A DNA stretch of 53,271 nt, taken from the NCBI RefSeq assembly GCF_003591005.1, contig NZ_QYYD01000032.1:1-53271 (forward strand), written 5' to 3'. The notes below the pieces were generated by a model. The model saw nothing but the letters and a program-made list of their open reading frames with translations, searched no databases and was not told the DNA's origin. This DNA comes from Rhodopseudomonas palustris (GTDB taxonomy: Bacteria; Pseudomonadota; Alphaproteobacteria; Rhizobiales; Xanthobacteraceae). The translations under genes and the position numbers were made by a program. Shown here piece after piece: positions 3,904-44,140 of the stretch (the stretch's first letter is position 1; every line of letters begins with the position of its first letter).

Positions 3904-5508
3904 TCAGGCGGGCTCGGCCAGCCATTGACGGACAATGGCGGCGGTTTCATTGGGATTGCGTTCGGCCAGCTCACCCACCCGGTGAACCGATTGGGCGTGG
4001 ACCTGGCCCTGGACCTGGGCGATGTCGATCATGCTGGGCGGCGTCACCGGCTGACCGTCGCTGCCGATCTGCGGCAGGCTATTGTCGGTGAGCGCCGGCA
4101 CGCCGGCTTCCGGCGCGGCCTCGGCCGCCAGCACGCGCTTGACCAGCGGGCGGATCACCATGAACAGCACCACCAGGCCGAGCACGAACAACACACCGAG
4201 CTGGATCATGTTCATGATGTCGTCCTTGGTGAATTGAAACATGCCCATCAGGCCAGCGGGCTCCGGGAGCTTCTCGAGCAGCGGAGCTTCGGCGAATTTC
4301 AGATTGACGACTTCGACCTGATCGCCGCGTTTTTGATCGAAGCCGATCGCCGAGCGCACCAGAGCGGCGATGCGGTCGAGTTGCTCCTTCGGGCGCTCGG
4401 CATAGACCAGCTCGCCTTTGTCATTCTTGGCGTAGCTGCCGTCGACCAGCACGGCGACCGACAGCCGGTTGACGCGACCGGCCTCCGTGACTTCGGTCTT
4501 GGTGACGCGGGAGATCTCGTAATTGTTGGTCTCTTCCGACTTCTTGCTCTGGTCGCGCGGAGCGGCGGCGGCGCCCTGCCCCGGATTGCCGGGCAGCTCA
4601 TTATTGACCGTGACCTGTCCGTCGTTCGCCTGCGTCTGCGACTGCTCTTCGCGCGTCTGGCTGGAGCGCAACACCCGGCCTTCCGGATCGAACTTGTCCG
4701 ACGTCTGGGTGATCTTGTTGTAATCGAAATCGGCGGTGACCTGAACACGGGCACGGCCGGAGCCGACGACCGACGACACAATCGCCTCGACTTCATTGCG
4801 CATCCGCTTTTCGAACGCAGTGCGCCGCTCATCGCCGGCCGAACTGTCGGCCGCATTGGCGGTCGCCGAGCCGTCGGCGAGCAGCTGCCCGCCCTCGTCG
4901 ACGATCGACACCCGCTGCGGCTTCAGGCCGTTGACGGCTGAGGCGGCGAGGTGACGAATGGCGCGGACCTGCTGCGGCTCCAGCGCGCCGCGCACCCGCA
5001 GCACGATCGAGGCGGACGGCTCCGGCGCCTCGCGTGAGAACAGCGGCCGCTCCGGCAGCACAAGATGCACGCGTGCCGCCTGAACGCGATCGATCGCGCG
5101 AATCGTCCGCGACAATTCGCCTTCCAGCGCGCGCAGATGATTGATGTTCTGCACGAAGCTGGTGGTGCCGAGCGCATCGGATTTGTCGAAGATCTCGTAC
5201 CCCACGCCGCCGCCCTTGGGCAGGCCGCCTTCGGCCAGCTTCATCCGCAGCCGGGTGACCTTGTCCTTCGGCACCATCAGGGTGGAGCCTTCGTTGCGCA
5301 TCTCGAACGGAATCGCCTGGCGCTCCAGCTCCTTGATGATGCTGGATGCGTCGTCATTGCCGAGGTCGGTGTAGAGGGTGGTCATCTGCGGCTGGGATAC
5401 CCGCATGATGACGAACGCAAAGAAGCCGAGCAGCGCCACCGTCACGGCGATCATCGCCATCAGCCGGGCGGCGCCCAAGCCTTTCAGGAAACCCAACACG
5501 TTCTGCAA
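3904..5508 (-). CDS. fliF: Flagellar MS-ring protein FliF
   Basis: FliF builds the membrane-embedded MS ring of the flagellar basal body. The protein has an N-terminal transmembrane segment (about 15-40), the ring-building YscJ/FliF domain with [18 protein letters not shown] and [13 protein letters not shown], a low-complexity periplasmic stretch, and a second membrane span ([16 protein letters not shown]) followed by the FliG-binding C-terminus. No good ATG lies near the expected N-terminus. A TTG at 5508 is preceded by AAGGGG at proper spacing and gives the usual start of about [16 protein letters not shown], so it was chosen (534 residues). A further TTG at 5550 is possible. This is the first gene of the flagellar operon, with two CtrA-like boxes upstream. 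Confidence 0.93.
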
Positions 5509-5579
5509 GACCAGCCCCTTGGATTCGGCACAACCGAGCCGACTAGGCAAACTTTGCCTATGGGATGGTTTCCAGAAGG

Positions 5580-5594
5580 TTAATAAATCTTAAC
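5580..5594 (-). promoter_or_regulatory. CtrA-like box (TTAA-N6-TTAAC) upstream of fliF
   Basis: Read on the minus strand the site is TTAA-N6-TTAAC, the CtrA consensus TTAA-N7-TTAAC with a spacer one base short. It lies 72-86 bp before the fliF TTG. In Caulobacter the fliF operon is directly controlled by CtrA. The spacer deviation keeps confidence modest. Confidence 0.4.
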
Positions 5595-5620
5595 GAGACG
5601 GAAATTGCTTCAAGAATGCC

Positions 5621-5653
5621 GAAAGCCGGCTTCCCGAAATGGGGCCGGCTTTC
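5621..5653 (-). terminator. Stem-loop downstream of sciP
   Basis: A perfect 10-bp inverted repeat GAAAGCCGGC / GCCGGCTTTC (5621-5630 / 5644-5653) with a 13-base loop lies 30 bp after the sciP stop and before fliF. No clear U tract follows, so termination is only possible. Confidence 0.4.
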
Positions 5654-5662
5654 AGGAATTCG

Positions 5663-5677
5663 TTAACCTCCGGGTAA
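5663..5677 (-). promoter_or_regulatory. CtrA-like box (TTAC-N7-TTAAC) between sciP and fliF
   Basis: On the minus strand the site reads TTAC-N7-TTAAC, one mismatch from the CtrA consensus. It sits 155-169 bp upstream of fliF, just after the sciP stop, giving a second candidate CtrA site in the fliF control region. Confidence 0.45.
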
Positions 5678-5683
5678 CCGGGG

Positions 5684-5959
5684 TTACTGCCGATATTGCT
5701 GGATTCGCGTGGTCCGCAGCCCCGCCAGACCGTGTTGGTCGATCGAGAATTGCCAGGACAGGAATTCGTCCACGGTGAGGGTATAGCGGCTGCAGGCCTC
5801 TTCGAGGGAGAGGAGACCACCCCGAACGGCGGCGACCACTTCGGCCTTGCGGCGGATCACCCAGCGCTTCGTCCCCGGGGCGGGCAAATCCGCAATCGTT
5901 AACGGACTTCCATCGGGCCCGATGACGTATTTGACCCGCGGGCGGTGGGGCTCTGTCAT
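5684..5959 (-). CDS. sciP: SciP-type CtrA inhibitor (DUF1153)
   Basis: This 91-residue soluble protein matches the DUF1153 family, with VKYVIGPDGSPLTIADLP near the N-terminus, then the basic helix-turn-helix region TKRWVIRRKAEVVAAVRGG and LSLEEACSRYTLTVDEFLSW. SciP is a small HTH protein that binds CtrA and/or DNA and blocks CtrA-driven transcription at the G1/swarmer stage in Caulobacter. There sciP also lies next to the fliF operon, as here. A CtrA-like box lies 61-75 bp before its ATG, consistent with negative feedback. Family assignment is firm; the regulatory role is transferred from Caulobacter. Confidence 0.92.
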   Translation of the reverse strand: MTEPHRPRVKYVIGPDGSPLTIADLPAPGTKRWVIRRKAEVVAAVRGGLLSLEEACSRYTLTVDEFLSWQFSIDQHGLAGLRTTRIQQYRQ

Positions 5960-6019
5960 GGCTTACTCACAACTCTCAAGCACTCAACATACTGTGCGAG
6001 CGAACGTACGTGGCCCGAC

Positions 6020-38394: not shown

Positions 38395-39099
38395 TTACTT
38401 CACCACCGAGGCGGTTTGGCCGAACAGCAGCTTCTTCTCTTCCTCGGTGCGGATTGTCGGCTGGCCGAAATTCGGATTGACCTCCTTGGCGCGGGCATAG
38501 GCGCGCTCGGTTGCCGGTCGCGCCGCGATCGTCTCCATCCAGCGTTTGACGTGCGGGAAGTCGTCGATGTTCTGGCTCTGGTTCTTGTACGGCACGATCC
38601 ACGGATAGCTCGCCATGTCGGCGATCGAATATTCACCGGCAATAAATTCGCGGTCGGCGAGGCGCTTGTTCAGCACGCCGTAGAGCCGGTTGGTCTCATT
38701 GACATAGCGGCTGATCGCGTAGGGAATTTTCTCGGGCGCGTAGTTGTTGAAGTGATGGTTCTGCCCGGCCATCGGGCCGAGCCCGCCCATTTGCCAGAAC
38801 AGCCATTGCAGCGCGTCGTTGCGGCCATACAGGTCCTTCGGCAGAAAGCGGCCGGTCTTGTCGGCCAGATACAGCAGGATCGCGCCGGACTCGAACACCG
38901 ACAGCGGCTTGTCCCCGGCCGGGTCGTGGTCGACGATCGCCGGCATCCGGTTGTTCGGCGCGATCGCCAGGAAGTCCGGCTTGAACTGATCGCCGGCGCC
39001 GATGTTCACCGGAATGATCTTGTAGGGAAGCCCGGCCTCTTCGAGAAACATCGTGATCTTGTGGCCGTTCGGCGTGGTCCAGTAATACAGGTCGATCAT
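38395..39099 (-). CDS. Glutathione S-transferase (YfcG/Nu-class-like)
   Basis: This 234-residue protein starts MIDLYYWTTPNGHKITMF, matching the PNGxK active-site loop of Nu-class GSTs such as YfcG/YghU, followed by NRMPAIVDHDP and VFESGAILLYLADKTG for glutathione contact. The C-terminal helices include GEYSIADMASYPWI. These enzymes often act as disulfide-bond reductases with glutathione. The start at 39099 is chosen because the longer frame lacks a ribosome site. Confidence 0.9.
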   Translation of the reverse strand: MIDLYYWTTPNGHKITMFLEEAGLPYKIIPVNIGAGDQFKPDFLAIAPNNRMPAIVDHDPAGDKPLSVFESGAILLYLADKTGRFLPKDLYGRNDALQWLFWQMGGLGPMAGQNHHFNNYAPEKIPYAISRYVNETNRLYGVLNKRLADREFIAGEYSIADMASYPWIVPYKNQSQNIDDFPHVKRWMETIAARPATERAYARAKEVNPNFGQPTIRTEEEKKLLFGQTASVVK

Positions 39100-39194
39100 G
39101 CAAGGTCTCCGGCTCGATCGCACCGGAGGAAGGACCGGCACGCGCATCGGGGAAAGATGCGTTTGCATGAAATTCGCAGAGCGCGTCGCGCCCG

Positions 39195-39848
39195 TCAATT
39201 GCTGGCTGCGATCATGAACAGGAGAAGCTCAGCCGCGGCCAGCGCCGCGAAAGCGCCCTGGGCGCGGCGGCAGACGGTCGGCTCGTGCCACGGCCAGTTG
39301 CGCCGTGCGCCGTACACGGCGATGCCGTCGATCACTCCGAACAGCGCCACCGCCGGCAACGCCCACAGCGCCAAATGGCTGCCGTCGATCGCCAGATAGA
39401 CGAGGCCGCGTGCACCGACATGGCCGACAACCGCCGACAGCCGCTCGATCGGCACCGCATAGCGCACGCAAAAGGAGCGCCTCGCCCCGCGCAGCCATGC
39501 CGCGACGACGTCGTCGGGGGGCGTCGGCCCTGACAGCGAAAGCGCCAGGATATAGACGACTTCGCCGCTGCCGGCACCGACACCGAAGCCGACAGCGTCG
39601 ACCAGCGGCAGTGGTGCCAGCAGGGCCAGCGCGATCGCCGCAGCGCCGAGTTCGCACGCTGCAGAGACAGCGCCGTCGATGACCGCTGCGGCGAGCGGCT
39701 CGAGCGCGGCGAGCGGCGGCCCCGACGCCCGCGCCAGCGCGAATTTCACCGCCACCGAGACGGCCCACACGGCCGCGCCGGCGCCAAGCGACAGCCACGA
39801 CGCACCGAACCAGACTGCGGCAGCGGGCGGCCCGATGGCCAGCGCCAC
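39195..39848 (-). CDS. Polytopic membrane protein, possibly intramembrane protease-like
   Basis: This protein of at least 217 residues has about six hydrophobic spans. Buried polar residues include Glu66 (ACELG), Glu96 (GAGSGEVVY), Glu135-Arg136 (PIERLSAVVGH) and His143. The GxxSGE and ER...H patterns faintly recall YhfC/PrsW-type intramembrane metalloproteases, but the usual EExxR motif is absent, so this is speculative. The GTG at 39848 opens inside a membrane span; the frame stays open upstream to about 39930, where it meets the stop of the precursor-like gene, so the true N-terminus is probably longer. It is the last gene of the radical SAM cluster. Confidence 0.6.
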   Translation of the reverse strand: MALAIGPPAAAVWFGASWLSLGAGAAVWAVSVAVKFALARASGPPLAALEPLAAAVIDGAVSAACELGAAAIALALLAPLPLVDAVGFGVGAGSGEVVYILALSLSGPTPPDDVVAAWLRGARRSFCVRYAVPIERLSAVVGHVGARGLVYLAIDGSHLALWALPAVALFGVIDGIAVYGARRNWPWHEPTVCRRAQGAFAALAAAELLLFMIAASN

Positions 39849-39925
39849 CAGCGCCGCCAGGCTGACGACGGACCATAGCGGCGGCGGCGCCTCCGGCGAC
39901 GTCGCCGCTTCGGGGTCGGGTGTGG

Positions 39926-40267
39926 TCAGCGGTCGTCCGCCTGAGGCGCGGTCGCCACCACCGCGCTGCTGACGACGACGTTGACCGCCGGCTTGGTGCC
40001 CTTGGTCAGGACGCTGACCACCGGCTTCACGATCGCCGACACTGCGCGCTGCGGATCGCTGGCGAGATCGGCAGCCAGGGCCACCGGATTGACCGCGGCG
40101 GCCGGCCGTTTCAGCGCGGCGCTCTGGTGAGCGTCGAGCCTGATGCCGGCATCGGTGAGCGCCTGCTGCGGGTCGCTTTCGAGCTGCGCGGCGAACTTCT
40201 CGTCGGTGAAGATGCGCCCGATCAGGCTGGCGAATTGCTGGTCTTTCTCTGTGCTTACTGAGGTCAT
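39926..40267 (-). CDS. Putative RiPP precursor with an NHLP/Nif11-like leader
   Basis: This 113-residue soluble protein has a leader-like N-terminus: LIGRIFTDEKFAAQL (15-29), then ESDPQQALTDAGIRL (30-44). The F-x3-L-x2-DP-x2-AL-x3-GI pattern is seen in precursors of several RiPP families. A second, looser copy (AADLASDPQRAVSAIV, 65-80) precedes a C-terminal tail rich in Val, Ala, Ser and Thr (80-107) with no cysteine. An AGGAGG site precedes the ATG at 40267; longer frames were discarded. It sits 73 bp after a B12-binding radical SAM gene, the expected modifying enzyme. The RiPP role is an inference. Confidence 0.65.
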   Translation of the reverse strand: MTSVSTEKDQQFASLIGRIFTDEKFAAQLESDPQQALTDAGIRLDAHQSAALKRPAAAVNPVALAADLASDPQRAVSAIVKPVVSVLTKGTKPAVNVVVSSAVVATAPQADDR

Positions 40268-40340
40268 GTCGTCCTCCTGAGGCGCCGCCTCCGCTTCGCG
40301 GACGCCATCGCTGGAAAAGTCGGGACGGGCCCGACGCTCT

Positions 40341-41876
40341 TCACGCATCGATGTGGCGAAGCGGTCGCTCCATCGAAACCTCAAGCCGGTTAGGACGGGG
40401 GAATTTGGTGGCAGTGTCGATGCCCTCCGGCATCGACACCTCACGCAGACTGGCAAGTCCATCGGGCCGACGGCCACGCACCTCGTCCGGATAGTACAAG
40501 GCGATCGGCTCGGGATGGCCGTATTCCACCATCGGACGGTCGGGCGAGCGAACTCGCGCCACGTTCTGCAGCGCCGCCACCATGGTCGACACGCCCAGGA
40601 TCTCGTCAGGCGTCAGCTGCACACCGGAGCGGAACAAGTACAAGTCTCGGAAGAAGCCGAAGTCATTGTACATCGCCTCGCTGACCTTGCCGGCCCGGCG
40701 ATCCGCCTCCCATAGCCGCGATCCCGGGATCTGGCAGTACCACTGCAGCAACACGCGGACACCATATTTGACGAACAGATGGCCGGCGAATGCGCAGGTC
40801 CTGCGCACCTCAGCGACGCCTTCCCACGGCAGGCCGACCACGAAGGAGAAGTCGGCCTTGCTGGCGAGGCCGTGGGCCTGCAACATCGCCGCGGCGTCTT
40901 CAAGGATTTTGGTGGTCGTGCCCTTGCCGATCTTCTCGAGGCCTTCATCGTAACCGCATTCCGCACCGACCAGGAATTGACCGGTGAACTCGGCGATCGA
41001 CGGCACAAGCCCATCGTAAAGCAGATCCGGCGCGCGGGAATCGAAGATCAAAGACGGGTTCAGGCCGCGGCGGCGGATCAGCTTGCTGATTTCGATGGTG
41101 CGCTTGGGATTGAGCGAGAACTCGTCGTCGATGATGTGGATCATGCCCAGCGAGGTGCGCGCCGCCTGCGGCATCATCGCAGCGAGCCGCTCGACGAATA
41201 CCTCGGCCGGCATACCGCGCCACGACTTGCGATACGACGTCGAGCAGAACGAGCAGTCGAACGCGCAACCGCGCGAGGATTCGATCGACAGGCCTTTATA
41301 GACCTGGTCCGGCAGTTGGCTGAAATCCGGCAGCGGGAAGCGTCCGAGCTGATTTTTGCCGAGCTTGGCTGGAATCGGGTTACGGACCACCTCGCCGCTT
41401 TGGTCGCGCCACGACAGGTTGGGCACACCGTCGAGCCCGCTGCCGCGCTCCAGCGCCGCGCACAATTCGCACAGCGCCACCTCGCCCTCACCACGGATGA
41501 TGTAGTCCACATGGAAGGTATTGAGAATGTAGTAGTCGAACATGGTCGGATGAATGCCGCCGAGCACGACGCGGGCATCGGGGCGGGCGCGGCGGACCTG
41601 GCGCAGCACGCGGACCGCGGTCGGCCACGACATCGAACTGGCACCGATCCCGACCAATCCGCAATCGGCAAGATCGGCCGCATAGGCATCGATGCAATCC
41701 GTCCCGTCGGCGATCAGGTCGGCGACGCGTGCGTCGTGGCCGGCCTCCCGCAAGACCGCCTGCAGCAAATAGATGCCGTAAGGCGGACACTCGCGAACCG
41801 CGTCCATCGCGATCGGCGCCGGCTTGTCGGCGAAGATGTCGTCCATGATCGGCGGCGCGAACAGCAGCACCTTCAT
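40341..41876 (-). CDS. B12-binding-domain radical SAM enzyme
   Basis: This 511-residue enzyme has an N-terminal cobalamin-binding domain (about 1-140; PPYGIYLLQAVLREAGH and VVLGGIHPTM) and a radical SAM core with the [4Fe-4S] motif C204-x3-C208-x2-C211 (RGCAFDCSFC). The C-terminal region (about 390-511) is unassigned. Class B enzymes of this kind methylate unreactive carbons or rearrange rings (BchE-like). The ATG at 41876 has AGGGGG upstream; a longer frame to 41948 overlaps the inverted-repeat operator. It heads a three-gene cluster with the precursor-like protein and a membrane protein, suggesting peptide modification. The substrate is unproven. Confidence 0.9.
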   Translation of the reverse strand: MKVLLFAPPIMDDIFADKPAPIAMDAVRECPPYGIYLLQAVLREAGHDARVADLIADGTDCIDAYAADLADCGLVGIGASSMSWPTAVRVLRQVRRARPDARVVLGGIHPTMFDYYILNTFHVDYIIRGEGEVALCELCAALERGSGLDGVPNLSWRDQSGEVVRNPIPAKLGKNQLGRFPLPDFSQLPDQVYKGLSIESSRGCAFDCSFCSTSYRKSWRGMPAEVFVERLAAMMPQAARTSLGMIHIIDDEFSLNPKRTIEISKLIRRRGLNPSLIFDSRAPDLLYDGLVPSIAEFTGQFLVGAECGYDEGLEKIGKGTTTKILEDAAAMLQAHGLASKADFSFVVGLPWEGVAEVRRTCAFAGHLFVKYGVRVLLQWYCQIPGSRLWEADRRAGKVSEAMYNDFGFFRDLYLFRSGVQLTPDEILGVSTMVAALQNVARVRSPDRPMVEYGHPEPIALYYPDEVRGRRPDGLASLREVSMPEGIDTATKFPRPNRLEVSMERPLRHIDA

Positions 41877-41923
41877 AGTCGCCCCCTGCGTGAGCCAAAA
41901 GAAATTACGCGAATATCTCCATT

Positions 41924-41944
41924 TATGCAACCTTAGATTGCATA
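41924..41944 (-). promoter_or_regulatory. Perfect inverted repeat TATGCAA-N7-TTGCATA upstream of the radical SAM gene
   Basis: Seven-base perfect arms separated by seven bases lie 48-68 bp before the radical SAM ATG, a typical operator position for a dimeric repressor. A second hairpin (CGCCAAGG / CTTTGGCG) follows at 41948-41967. The regulator is not encoded next to it. Confidence 0.5.
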
Positions 41945-42033
41945 GCACGCCAAGGCTTTCTTTGGCGGCTTCGGGCTAGAGTTTGGGTAGCCTCCGCGCG
42001 TCGAGGTCGGCCTGCCCTCCCTGCCTCAATCAG

Positions 42034-42150
42034 GTCATTCCGGGGCGCGCAGCGCAGCTGCGCGAACCCGGAATCCAGAGCTGTTCTGCGACGTCGGCAT
42101 TTCCACAACTGCGAGATTTCGGGTTCGCGCTGCGCGCGCCCCAAAATGAC
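42034..42150. repeat. Dispersed intergenic repeat family A
   Basis: Outer arms GTCATTCCGGGGCGCGC and GCGCGCCCCAAAATGAC, inner GAACCCGGAATC / GATTTCGGGTTC, immediately downstream of the alkyl-sulfatase-like gene. Confidence 0.85.
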
Positions 42151-42166
42151 GGGGTGGGCCAGTGCC

Positions 42167-44140
42167 CTACTCCACCTTGGCCTTCACCGGCTCGATGACT
42201 TCGAAGTTCGGCGAGAACTCGTCGAACATGCCGAACAGCTCGCGCAGCTTCAGCGGATTGCCGGTGACCCACAGGTCGCCGGTCGCGATGGCGCCGAGGA
42301 AGCTGCGCTGCTTCAGCGAGATGGCGTCGAACGTCGGCCGGCTCAGCGTGACGCTGACGTCGGCGTCGCTGGCTAGCTTGCCGGCGATGTGCGACAGCGC
42401 CGAGTTCTCCAAAGTCATCGTGTATGTCTCTTTGGTGTCGCTGAAAGTCCAGTTCACGACGATGCGCTTGCCCTCGGCCTTGGCCGGATTGAGCCGGACC
42501 GCCAGGAAGTCGAACGCGAGATCGACCGACACCGCCTTCAGCAAGTCCGGGTTGGCCGTCGTCAGAGCCGTCGCGGTCAGGCCGCTGCGTAGCTCCTGCG
42601 CGCCGAGCAGATAGGCGTTGCGCCAGGTCGAGGCTTCGGCCTGGTAGCCGAGTTGCTCCAGCGCGTCGGCGCCGAGCGCGCGGGCGGCCTTGTTGGCCGG
42701 ATCGGCGAACACCAGCTTGCTTGCGACGCTGGCGACCCAGCGATACTGCCCGGCCTTGTAATCCTCGCGGGCGCGCGCCAACACGGCGTCGGCGCCGCCC
42801 ATGTAGTCGATCTCCTTCCTGGCCTGCTCGACGCGCGGCAGCGGGTTGAGATCGGCCGGGTTGGCGTCGTACCAGCCGAGATAGAATTGATACACCGCCT
42901 TGGCGTTGTGGCTCACGGAGCCATAGTACCCACGTGCGGCGAACTCGTTCGCCAGCGACGCCGGCAGCGTCAATCTTTCGGCAATTTCGGTGGGCGTCAG
43001 ACCGTAGTTCATCAGCCGCACGCTCTGGTCGTGGATGAACTTGTAGACGTCGCGTTGCTTCCTGAGATAGCCGGCGACCCGGTCGCGGCCCCACACCGGC
43101 CAGTTATGCTGGGCGATCACCACATCGGTGCGGTCGCCGTAGCGATCGAGCGCCTCGCCGATGTATTTCGACCACAGCCGCCCGTCGCGCACCGCAGCGC
43201 CGCGCAGCGTGTAGAGGTTGTGCAGCGTGTGGGTGGTGTCCTCCGCCATGTTCAGGACTTTGAACTGCGGATAATACGAGATCATCTCGGATGGTGCCTC
43301 GGAGCCCGGCACCAGATGGAATTCGATCTCGACGCCGTCGATGCTGCGGGTCTCGTAGCTCTGCTGGATGGTGTCGTTCGGCGGGATCAGCGACACTGCG
43401 CCGAGCGCGAGCGCCTTGCCGAGCCCGGCATCGACCTGGCCGCGCGCGCCGACCGGCAGCGGCGCGCCGAACTGGAACTGCGCGCGCCGGCTCATCGCGT
43501 TGCCGGCGATCACGTTCTCGGCGACTGCATGCTCCATGAAGCCGGACGGCGCGATCACCTTGACCTTGCCGCTGGCCGCATCCGCATCGCTGATCAGCCC
43601 GCGCGCGCCGCCGAAATGATCGATATGGCTGTGGGTGTAGATCAGCGCCACCACCGGCTTCTTCGGCCGGTGCAGGTAGTACAGCTCCAGCGCCGCCTGC
43701 GCGGTCGGCACGCTCAGCGTGGTGTCGGTCAGGATCAGGCCGGTGTCGCCTTCGACGATGGTGATGTTGGCGATGTCCAGCCCGCGGACCTGATAGACGC
43801 GGTCTGCGACCTTGAACAATCCATTGGCGAGATTGAGCTGCGCCTGCCGCCACAGGCTGGGATTGACCGTCGGCGGCGCCGCATCGCCCTTGAGGAAGTC
43901 GTAGAGCTTCAGGTTCCACGCCGGCGGCGCGCCGGCCGCGCCGGCAATCACACCGCCCGGCAGCGGCGCGATCAACCCGCGCTGCGCGTCCTCGAAATCG
44001 GCGCGGTCCGCCAGCGGCAGCGAACGGGCGACCGTCTCGTTGGCCGCCCGCGTCGCTGGCTCGGCGTCGTTGGGTTGAGCGGTGGCGGCATAGGGCGCGA
44101 GCAGCGCAAGGACAGCCAAGCAGGCGGATCGGCAATTCAT
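42167..44140 (-). CDS. Alkyl/aryl-sulfatase-type metallo-beta-lactamase protein (SdsA1/YjcS-like)
   Basis: This 657-residue exported protein has a signal peptide (1-21, ending AATA), a metallo-beta-lactamase domain with the zinc motif TH170SHID174H175 and later zinc ligands in NMAEDTTHTLHN, a dimerisation domain (about 380-510) and a C-terminal SCP2-like domain (about 530-657). This three-part build matches SdsA1/YjcS enzymes that hydrolyse primary alkyl sulfates such as SDS outside the cytoplasm. It is monocistronic, flanked by a family A repeat on one side and uvrB on the other. Confidence 0.92.
   Translation of the reverse strand: MNCRSACLAVLALLAPYAATAQPNDAEPATRAANETVARSLPLADRADFEDAQRGLIAPLPGGVIAGAAGAPPAWNLKLYDFLKGDAAPPTVNPSLWRQAQLNLANGLFKVADRVYQVRGLDIANITIVEGDTGLILTDTTLSVPTAQAALELYYLHRPKKPVVALIYTHSHIDHFGGARGLISDADAASGKVKVIAPSGFMEHAVAENVIAGNAMSRRAQFQFGAPLPVGARGQVDAGLGKALALGAVSLIPPNDTIQQSYETRSIDGVEIEFHLVPGSEAPSEMISYYPQFKVLNMAEDTTHTLHNLYTLRGAAVRDGRLWSKYIGEALDRYGDRTDVVIAQHNWPVWGRDRVAGYLRKQRDVYKFIHDQSVRLMNYGLTPTEIAERLTLPASLANEFAARGYYGSVSHNAKAVYQFYLGWYDANPADLNPLPRVEQARKEIDYMGGADAVLARAREDYKAGQYRWVASVASKLVFADPANKAARALGADALEQLGYQAEASTWRNAYLLGAQELRSGLTATALTTANPDLLKAVSVDLAFDFLAVRLNPAKAEGKRIVVNWTFSDTKETYTMTLENSALSHIAGKLASDADVSVTLSRPTFDAISLKQRSFLGAIATGDLWVTGNPLKLRELFGMFDEFSPNFEVIEPVKAKVE

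Follow-up and report, generated by a model that had tools for sequence, protein, structure and literature searches.

A three-gene RiPP-type cassette with a B12 radical SAM enzyme and a YhfC-derived membrane protein in Rhodopseudomonas palustris

We analysed a stretch of 53,271 nucleotides of Rhodopseudomonas palustris (contig NZ_QYYD01000032.1, here called the window), in which three genes on the minus strand encode a cobalamin (B12)-binding radical S-adenosylmethionine (SAM) enzyme, a small protein similar to precursors of ribosomally synthesized and post-translationally modified peptides (RiPPs), and a polytopic membrane protein. The comparisons described below support a RiPP-type locus with a leader of the NHLP clan, in which the B12 radical SAM enzyme stands alone and is joined by an unusual membrane partner derived from YhfC. 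We consider it probable (about 0.6) that the cassette makes one modified ribosomal peptide, whose core would be C-methylated by the enzyme and which the membrane protein would handle or protect against. No description of this three-gene set was found in our searches of open-licence PMC papers or in scans against NCBIfam and Pfam.

The precursor-like protein and the radical SAM enzyme

The gene of the precursor-like protein (39,926-40,267, minus strand, 113 amino acids) is preceded by the Shine-Dalgarno box AGGAGG (40,273-40,278, minus strand), 5 bases ahead of the ATG. The protein scores 46.7 bits (E 2.4e-12) against the NCBIfam model NF038399 of the Os1348 family, NHLP clan, whose cut-off is 40. 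It also matches TIGR04509, TIGR03793 and Pfam PF14407, all below cut-off; the classic NHLP model TIGR03793 gives 14.1 bits against the 50.9 needed. A Nif11 leader was rejected, as the NCBIfam scan gave no Nif11 match at E<=1. The initial annotation had likened the leader pattern to that of NHLP/Nif11-type and related RiPP precursors; given the score over the cut-off of NF038399 and the absence of a Nif11 match, the first assignment holds and the second is dropped. In a phmmer search against sequences of the Protein Data Bank (PDB), residues 9-55 match the solved Os1348 protein 6lk7_A (E 1e-5); 8tb1_A, a chimera with an NHLP leader, is found at E 0.029. In the 5.62-Mb genome, this locus is the single place over the cut-off of NF038399. 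Three further places have E<=1, the best one scoring 25.9 bits, below cut-off; by eye we take this place to be the alpha subunit of nitrile hydratase, the protein after which the NHLP leader is named.

The small protein consists of a leader (approximately residues 9-55), a variable linker and a conserved core (approximately residues 83-103) containing GTKPAVNVVV. Compared with the copy of R. rhenobacensis, 17 of 20 residues of the core and 23 of 42 of the leader are identical, against 10 of 28 of the linker and 3 of 10 of both the N-terminus and the tail. Conserved leader and core around a variable linker are the pattern expected of a leader-plus-core protein, and by homology the small protein is a predicted precursor of the RiPP type. 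It is improbable that the protein is instead a carrier, a substrate-presenting subunit or a signal protein from which no peptide is released. Such a role would agree with the detection of Os1348 (ca. 8.9 kDa, 85 amino acids) in wild-type cells by western blot, described in PMC7726476, with a known carrier-peptide system (PMC9303977), and with a cassette containing neither a leader protease nor a transporter. However, conservation is higher in the core than in the linker, and cores differ between loci while the NHLP-clan leader stays.

The radical SAM gene (40,341-41,876, minus strand, 511 amino acids, likely start MKVLLFAPP at 41,876) lies upstream of the precursor gene, the gap of 73 bp being 40,268-40,340. 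The protein contains a B12-binding domain (PF02310, E 3.2e-16) and a radical SAM domain (PF04055, E 8e-13), both over cut-off, and the CxxxCxxC motif, formed by C204, C208 and C211, which are retained in 22 of 22 aligned loci. Together with the predicted fold, these features assign it to B12-dependent radical SAM enzymes. The predicted structure (predicted local distance difference test, pLDDT, 85.8) matches OxsB, TsrM, MgmA, AprD4, CysS and TokK. The PDB chain closest in sequence is 9ccb (E 7.8e-11), whose title names MgmA, the methyl-coenzyme M reductase glutamine methylase, that is, a protein glutamine methylase.

No NCBIfam model is matched over cut-off by the enzyme, the best scores being those of BchE (95 bits, 481 needed) and ApyD (91 bits, 750 needed). 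Assignments to BchE, ApyD, HpnR/HpnJ and rSAM_ocin_1 were rejected, all scores being far under cut-off. A plasmid origin of the enzyme was rejected as well: the 75 plasmid records found at E<=1e-5 all have less than 60% identity, and none covers 80% of the query.

The enzyme is most likely a candidate peptide C-methyltransferase. Val C-beta is methylated by PoyC, and Phe, Val and Pro are methylated by the bottromycin enzymes, as described in PMC11285071; methylation of Val, Pro or Thr is favoured here by this precedent, Thr being our extension. C-methylation is also favoured by the composition of the window core, which has no Cys, Tyr, Trp or Phe and so offers neither a cysteine nor an aromatic residue to link. 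One alternative is a different core chemistry, such as ring formation, cross-linking or rearrangement. The structural class includes non-methylases such as OxsB (described in PMC13331322), and the enzyme resembles BchE and ApyD below cut-off. On the other hand, TsrM, CysS, TokK and MgmA, which are also among the top structural matches, are methylases, and together with the core composition they make this alternative a minority reading, to which we would assign somewhat more than a fifth of the weight.

The enzyme is rare: searching 297 genomes of the order at E<=1e-80 gave one with it, and searching 385 of the class at E<=1e-70 gave three, the own genome included in both counts and at most five and three candidates per genome, respectively, being scored. 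The small protein was found in one of 61 genomes searched, namely the own one. A contig scan yielded 21 further loci of the enzyme (designated below by L numbers), two of which, L028 and L033, are the class relatives already met. The 21 loci were retrieved with two peptide patterns, one being L[VI]GAECGY, and the conservation of C307 in 22 of 22 loci is thus partly built in. The loci span Pseudomonadota, Actinomycetota, Acidobacteriota, Planctomycetota, Thermodesulfobacteriota, Bacillota and Myxococcota, as well as two lineages without a named phylum.

Seventeen neighbouring small proteins were compared with the NCBIfam models; 16 loci including the window contributed one each, and the last is a second open reading frame (ORF) of L020; L028, nearly identical to L027, was left out. 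NHLP-clan matches at E<=1e-3 were obtained for 11 of the 17, two being over cut-off, and weak ones (E 0.013-0.097) for three, from L021, L029 and L030; the remaining three (L023, L026 and the second ORF of L020) have no NHLP-clan match. The small protein of L033 matches both TIGR04509 and NF038399. Counted by locus, an NHLP-clan ORF stands beside the enzyme gene at E<=1e-3 in 11 of 22 loci from several phyla, and a weak one in three more. A predicted modifying enzyme is conserved beside a predicted precursor, as in RiPP loci.

This recurrence also bears on the possibility that the B12 radical SAM enzyme is of a lipid or pigment type and adjoins an unrelated small gene as an ordinary neighbour. 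BchE does give the best curated score, but at 95 bits it is far from its cut-off; the pairing across phyla already contradicts such a chance neighbourhood, and the three genes are jointly present or absent in the genus regions read. We regard it as very improbable.

The initial annotation had described three co-directional genes in this order, a 511-residue enzyme with CxxxCxxC at 204-211, and a 113-residue protein 73 bp downstream with AGGAGG and the leader pattern F-x3-L-x2-DP-x2-AL-x3-GI; the coordinates and motifs agree with ours, and the pattern begins at F25. It had asked for a match to RiPP leader models and for a recurrent pairing of the small gene with the enzyme gene, and both were obtained. 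Its reading of the locus as one that makes or processes a modified peptide is supported accordingly by the leader-family match and the pairing, while the modification itself is a proposal. Of the extent it gave, 39,195-41,944, the lower end stands; the upper end lies upstream of the likely start of the enzyme gene.

A core motif and its membrane partner

The motif GTxPx[VI]xVxV of the core was found by a six-frame search in exactly six of the 22 loci, once in each: the window, L015, L025, L029, L030 and L033. The membrane protein is encoded at five of these six, and among the 16 loci without the motif only the damaged locus L032 has it, in two frames, giving six loci in all (the window, L015, L025, L030, L033 and L032). 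The association of core and membrane protein has a Fisher p of 0.0013, or 0.0003 without L032, uncorrected for kinship. In the tree of the enzyme, a branch with 100/100 support separates the loci with the membrane protein into three and three, the exact position of L025 being unsettled; the presence of the membrane protein requires three changes on this tree, of which well-supported branches demand at least two, and a number as low was reached in 8 of 500 shuffles. Leader family is not predictive, as NHLP-clan leaders also occur at L016-L020, L022 and L027, where the membrane protein is absent. On these sequence comparisons, the predicted partner accompanies one core motif on both sides of a deep split of the enzyme tree.

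Elsewhere in the 21 genomes from which the named loci come, the membrane protein was not found at E<=1e-4, and 16 of the 21 contain no copy at all. In wider searches it was found in one of 398 genomes of the phylum, one of 149 of the class of the Luteitalea genome and one of 96 of the family of the Myxococcus genome, each match being the own or centre genome; in many genomes candidates were scored in part, and weak copies could escape.

The membrane protein gene occupies 39,195-39,920 on the minus strand, 39,195 being the end of the frame. There is no in-frame ATG, GTG or TTG from the stop codon of the precursor gene down to the GTG at 39,848. The candidate starts are this GTG, which would truncate the first predicted helix (residues 18-37 of the model, numbered from 39,920), and the CTG at 39,929, which overlaps the precursor stop. 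In a Foldseek search with the model (pLDDT 90.9), chain 7tm3_6 of a translocon ranks first (E 0.08) and chain 8oqy_C of a gamma-secretase second (E 0.11), each with probability 1.00 and with TM scores of 0.56-0.57. We take the former to be TMEM147 and the latter APH-1B. No match has E<=0.001, and the third is an unrelated designed protein.

Matches to the YhfC family (PF10086, cut-off 24.2 bits) were found for three of five copies of the membrane protein (the window, L025 and L030), all below cut-off: the window protein scores 14.7 bits and its best relative 19.2. A profile comparison with YhfC (hhalign) aligns the motifs with a probability of 79% and E 1.5e-5 for a single comparison. The ten YhfC proteins used in it were chosen by a regular expression that demands the motifs; three more, missed by this expression, retain EExxR, GHxG and HxxxD/N by eye, although ERx6H has Q in place of H in two of these three. 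All 13 YhfC proteins read thus have the motifs EExxR, GHxG and HxxxD/N; they represent 13 of the 14 places over cut-off (the fragment L047 was left out), and 12 of them come from one bacterial family. In contrast, all six cassette proteins have lost the R and one E of EExxR, and the histidines of GHxG and HxxxD/N are replaced by A and F, respectively; all six retain ER, the H that follows it and the D. Which E of EExxR is kept differs between alignments, and the R is lost in either. In the CPBP/APH-1 superfamily, the conserved polar residues described in PMC6588880 are an EExxxR motif and two histidines. The loss of these residues in the cassette proteins suggests a pseudo-protease. In the positions of the motifs, and possibly in the predicted fold, the cassette copies resemble YhfC and the CPBP-PrsW-APH-1 superfamily (superfamily as described in PMC6588880); unlike YhfC proper, they score below the Pfam cut-off wherever they match, and most protease motif residues are gone. 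The membrane protein is probably a distant YhfC relative with degenerate motifs and not a working protease.

The contrary possibility, that the membrane protein is an active intramembrane peptidase serving in maturation or export of the modified peptide, appears unlikely. Its kinship with YhfC, seen in the sub-cut-off matches and the profile alignment, would fit a peptidase, the cassette contains no other, and residues E90, E120, E159-R160, H167 and D198, invariant in five of five copies, could make a different site. Against this, the motifs kept by every YhfC protein read are degenerate in every cassette member, and many loci with the same leader family have no membrane protein, which would be unexpected of a leader peptidase. 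These two points and the link to a single core motif led us to drop the simple idea of a leader peptidase.

In Myxococcus sp. CA023 (L032, L041 and L053) the cassette looks decayed: the enzyme match begins only at residue 74, two frames share the membrane gene and the core motif was not seen.

Limits and neighbourhood of the cassette

Homologues of the neighbouring glutathione S-transferase (GST) gene occur in 16 of 16 genomes of the genus searched. Eight genomes besides the own one have it at 82-92% identity; the other seven contain only paralogues at approximately 58-59%, which are uninformative. In all eight fetched GST regions uvrB adjoins, and none contains the genes of the radical SAM enzyme, the small protein or the membrane protein (tblastn, E 1e-10). 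Similarity by blastn breaks at 39,099-39,100 of the window in eight of eight genomes, and returns at 42,161-42,178 in the five genomes having the alkyl-sulfatase gene. The DNA missing from the syntenic place, 39,101-42,160, to which no strand is assigned, is the whole cassette; as the same neighbourhood exists without it in eight genomes of the genus, the cassette is limited to the three genes. In R. rhenobacensis it sits between uvrB and the same GST gene. Comparison with this species gave NG86 dN/dS values of 0.215/0.809 for the enzyme gene, 0.423/0.806 for the small gene and 0.491/0.794 for the membrane gene, dN being below dS in all three.

Among ten neighbouring ORFs scanned, eight have Pfam matches at E<=1e-5 (GST, short-chain dehydrogenase/reductase, AMP-binding, alkyl-sulfatase, UvrB and others), and no transporter, peptidase or RiPP enzyme was found among these eight. 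With the eight empty sites, this bears out the view that the locus is minimal. By blastn, related genomes contain further copies of an intergenic stretch (42,033-42,150), both close to the GST gene and in other places; it looks like a dispersed extragenic repeat. Rfam and tRNA scans gave no structured RNA or tRNA in the window.

Proposed mechanism and relation to known systems

The folded Os1348/NHLP-type leader of the 113-residue precursor would offer the B12 radical SAM enzyme the C-terminal core, PVVSVLTKGTKPAVNVVVSS. The enzyme would C-methylate unactivated carbons of the core, Val C-beta, Pro or Thr being the most likely sites, and the leader would be cut off by a protease encoded elsewhere. 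The YhfC-derived protein may bind the product, which would be hydrophobic and beta-branched, within the membrane, and may serve for self-protection or aid insertion or export of the product. We tentatively suggest, as a possibility of roughly one in three or slightly lower, that a catalytically dead relative of intramembrane proteases, a bacterial counterpart of APH-1, is the dedicated membrane partner of one type of C-methylated core, making a self-contained RiPP class. In this reading the partner, which follows the core across the deep split of the enzyme tree and several phyla, would act on the modified peptide itself.

Several observations weigh against the proposal. The cassette has no leader peptidase or transporter. 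Cobalamin radical SAM enzymes that do not methylate exist, OxsB, AlsB, ThnL and BchE being described in PMC13331322, and the best NCBIfam scores of our enzyme are to BchE (95/481) and ApyD (91/750). No precursor was identified at four of 22 loci (L024, L031, L032 and L035), and among the scanned loci the leader exceeds a curated cut-off only in the window and L015. Locus L029, near a contig end, has the core motif, and the membrane protein was not found in its genome; L032 has the membrane protein in two frames and a truncated enzyme match, and no core motif.

The closest known leaders are those of Os1348, PosA and PflA of Pseudomonas, by the matches to NF038399 and 6lk7 given above. Os1348 is a protein of 85 amino acids whose loss reduces antibiotic activity (described in PMC7726476). 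NHLP leaders are also borne by the RiPP precursors PflA and PosA, on which HEXXH and MNIO-nitroreductase enzymes act (described in PMC12636437); no protease gene is described there beside PflA either. The clusters described in PMC7726476 and PMC12636437 encode GNAT, HEXXH and SagB/MNIO-nitroreductase enzymes and transporters, whereas the present cassette encodes a membrane protein and, as its one enzyme, a B12 radical SAM protein. The core of PflA and PosA has a Gln run and ARMD (PMC12636437), while that of the cassette has GTKPAVNVVV.

The polytheonamide enzymes PoyB and PoyC and those of bottromycin are likewise B12 radical SAM enzymes acting on a ribosomal precursor, with Val or Val and Pro as substrates (as described in PMC11285071). 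We liken the cassette enzyme to them by description, not by sequence: PoyC has Cx7Cx2C (same source), the cassette enzyme Cx3Cx2C. Unlike these systems, the cassette contains no epimerase or other tailoring gene. The model TIGR03975 (rSAM_ocin_1) also comprises B12 radical SAM enzymes named for RiPP maturation, but the cassette enzyme is not a member (59.2 bits, cut-off 281.85). No RiPP recognition element (RRE) domain appeared in the Pfam and NCBIfam scans of the three proteins, none of which was an RRE-specific search.

In other loci of the enzyme family the second partner varies with the type of core. In Actinomadura (L016, 10,067-13,010) the enzyme gene is followed by that of an NHLP-clan protein with a Cys-rich core, and then by that of a partner with RamC_N, kinase and LanC-like domains; this locus may make a lanthipeptide on which a B12 radical SAM enzyme acts as well. 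A YydG-like radical SAM enzyme is found at L020 (71/300 bits).

A different precursor type is encoded at L023, L026 and L034, with a chagasin I42 domain (a Pfam match for L026 only) followed by YAAPM-like repeats. These I42-domain proteins with many repeats lie at L023:2,736-3,635, L026:9,474-10,280 and L034:9,463-10,548, and L024 appears alike. A SPASM-like radical SAM enzyme stands beside this type at L023 (best model TIGR03913, 229/592 bits) and, by eye, likewise at L024, L026 and L034. The I42/YAAPM loci are a second, different modified-protein system with the same enzyme family. At two actinobacterial loci, L031 (66-233) and L035 (5,938-7,113), what appears by eye to be an amidohydrolase-like gene precedes the enzyme gene; a possible precursor of L035, at 5,408-5,971, has no Pfam match.

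The enzyme family is thus reused with very different cores and second enzymes. The three genes of the cassette are few enough to be expressed as a whole, which makes it a practical test bed for B12-dependent peptide chemistry, and for the way in which enzymes are guided by an Os1348/NHLP leader in a cassette where those scans showed no RRE. What is added to the initial annotation is the membrane protein as a candidate YhfC/APH-1-like pseudo-protease tied to one core type. It would be a bacterial protease fold kept without its catalytic residues, with a function testable by deletion; if our suggestion is true, this APH-1-like partner would be an immunity protein, a receptor or an insertion factor for the modified peptide.

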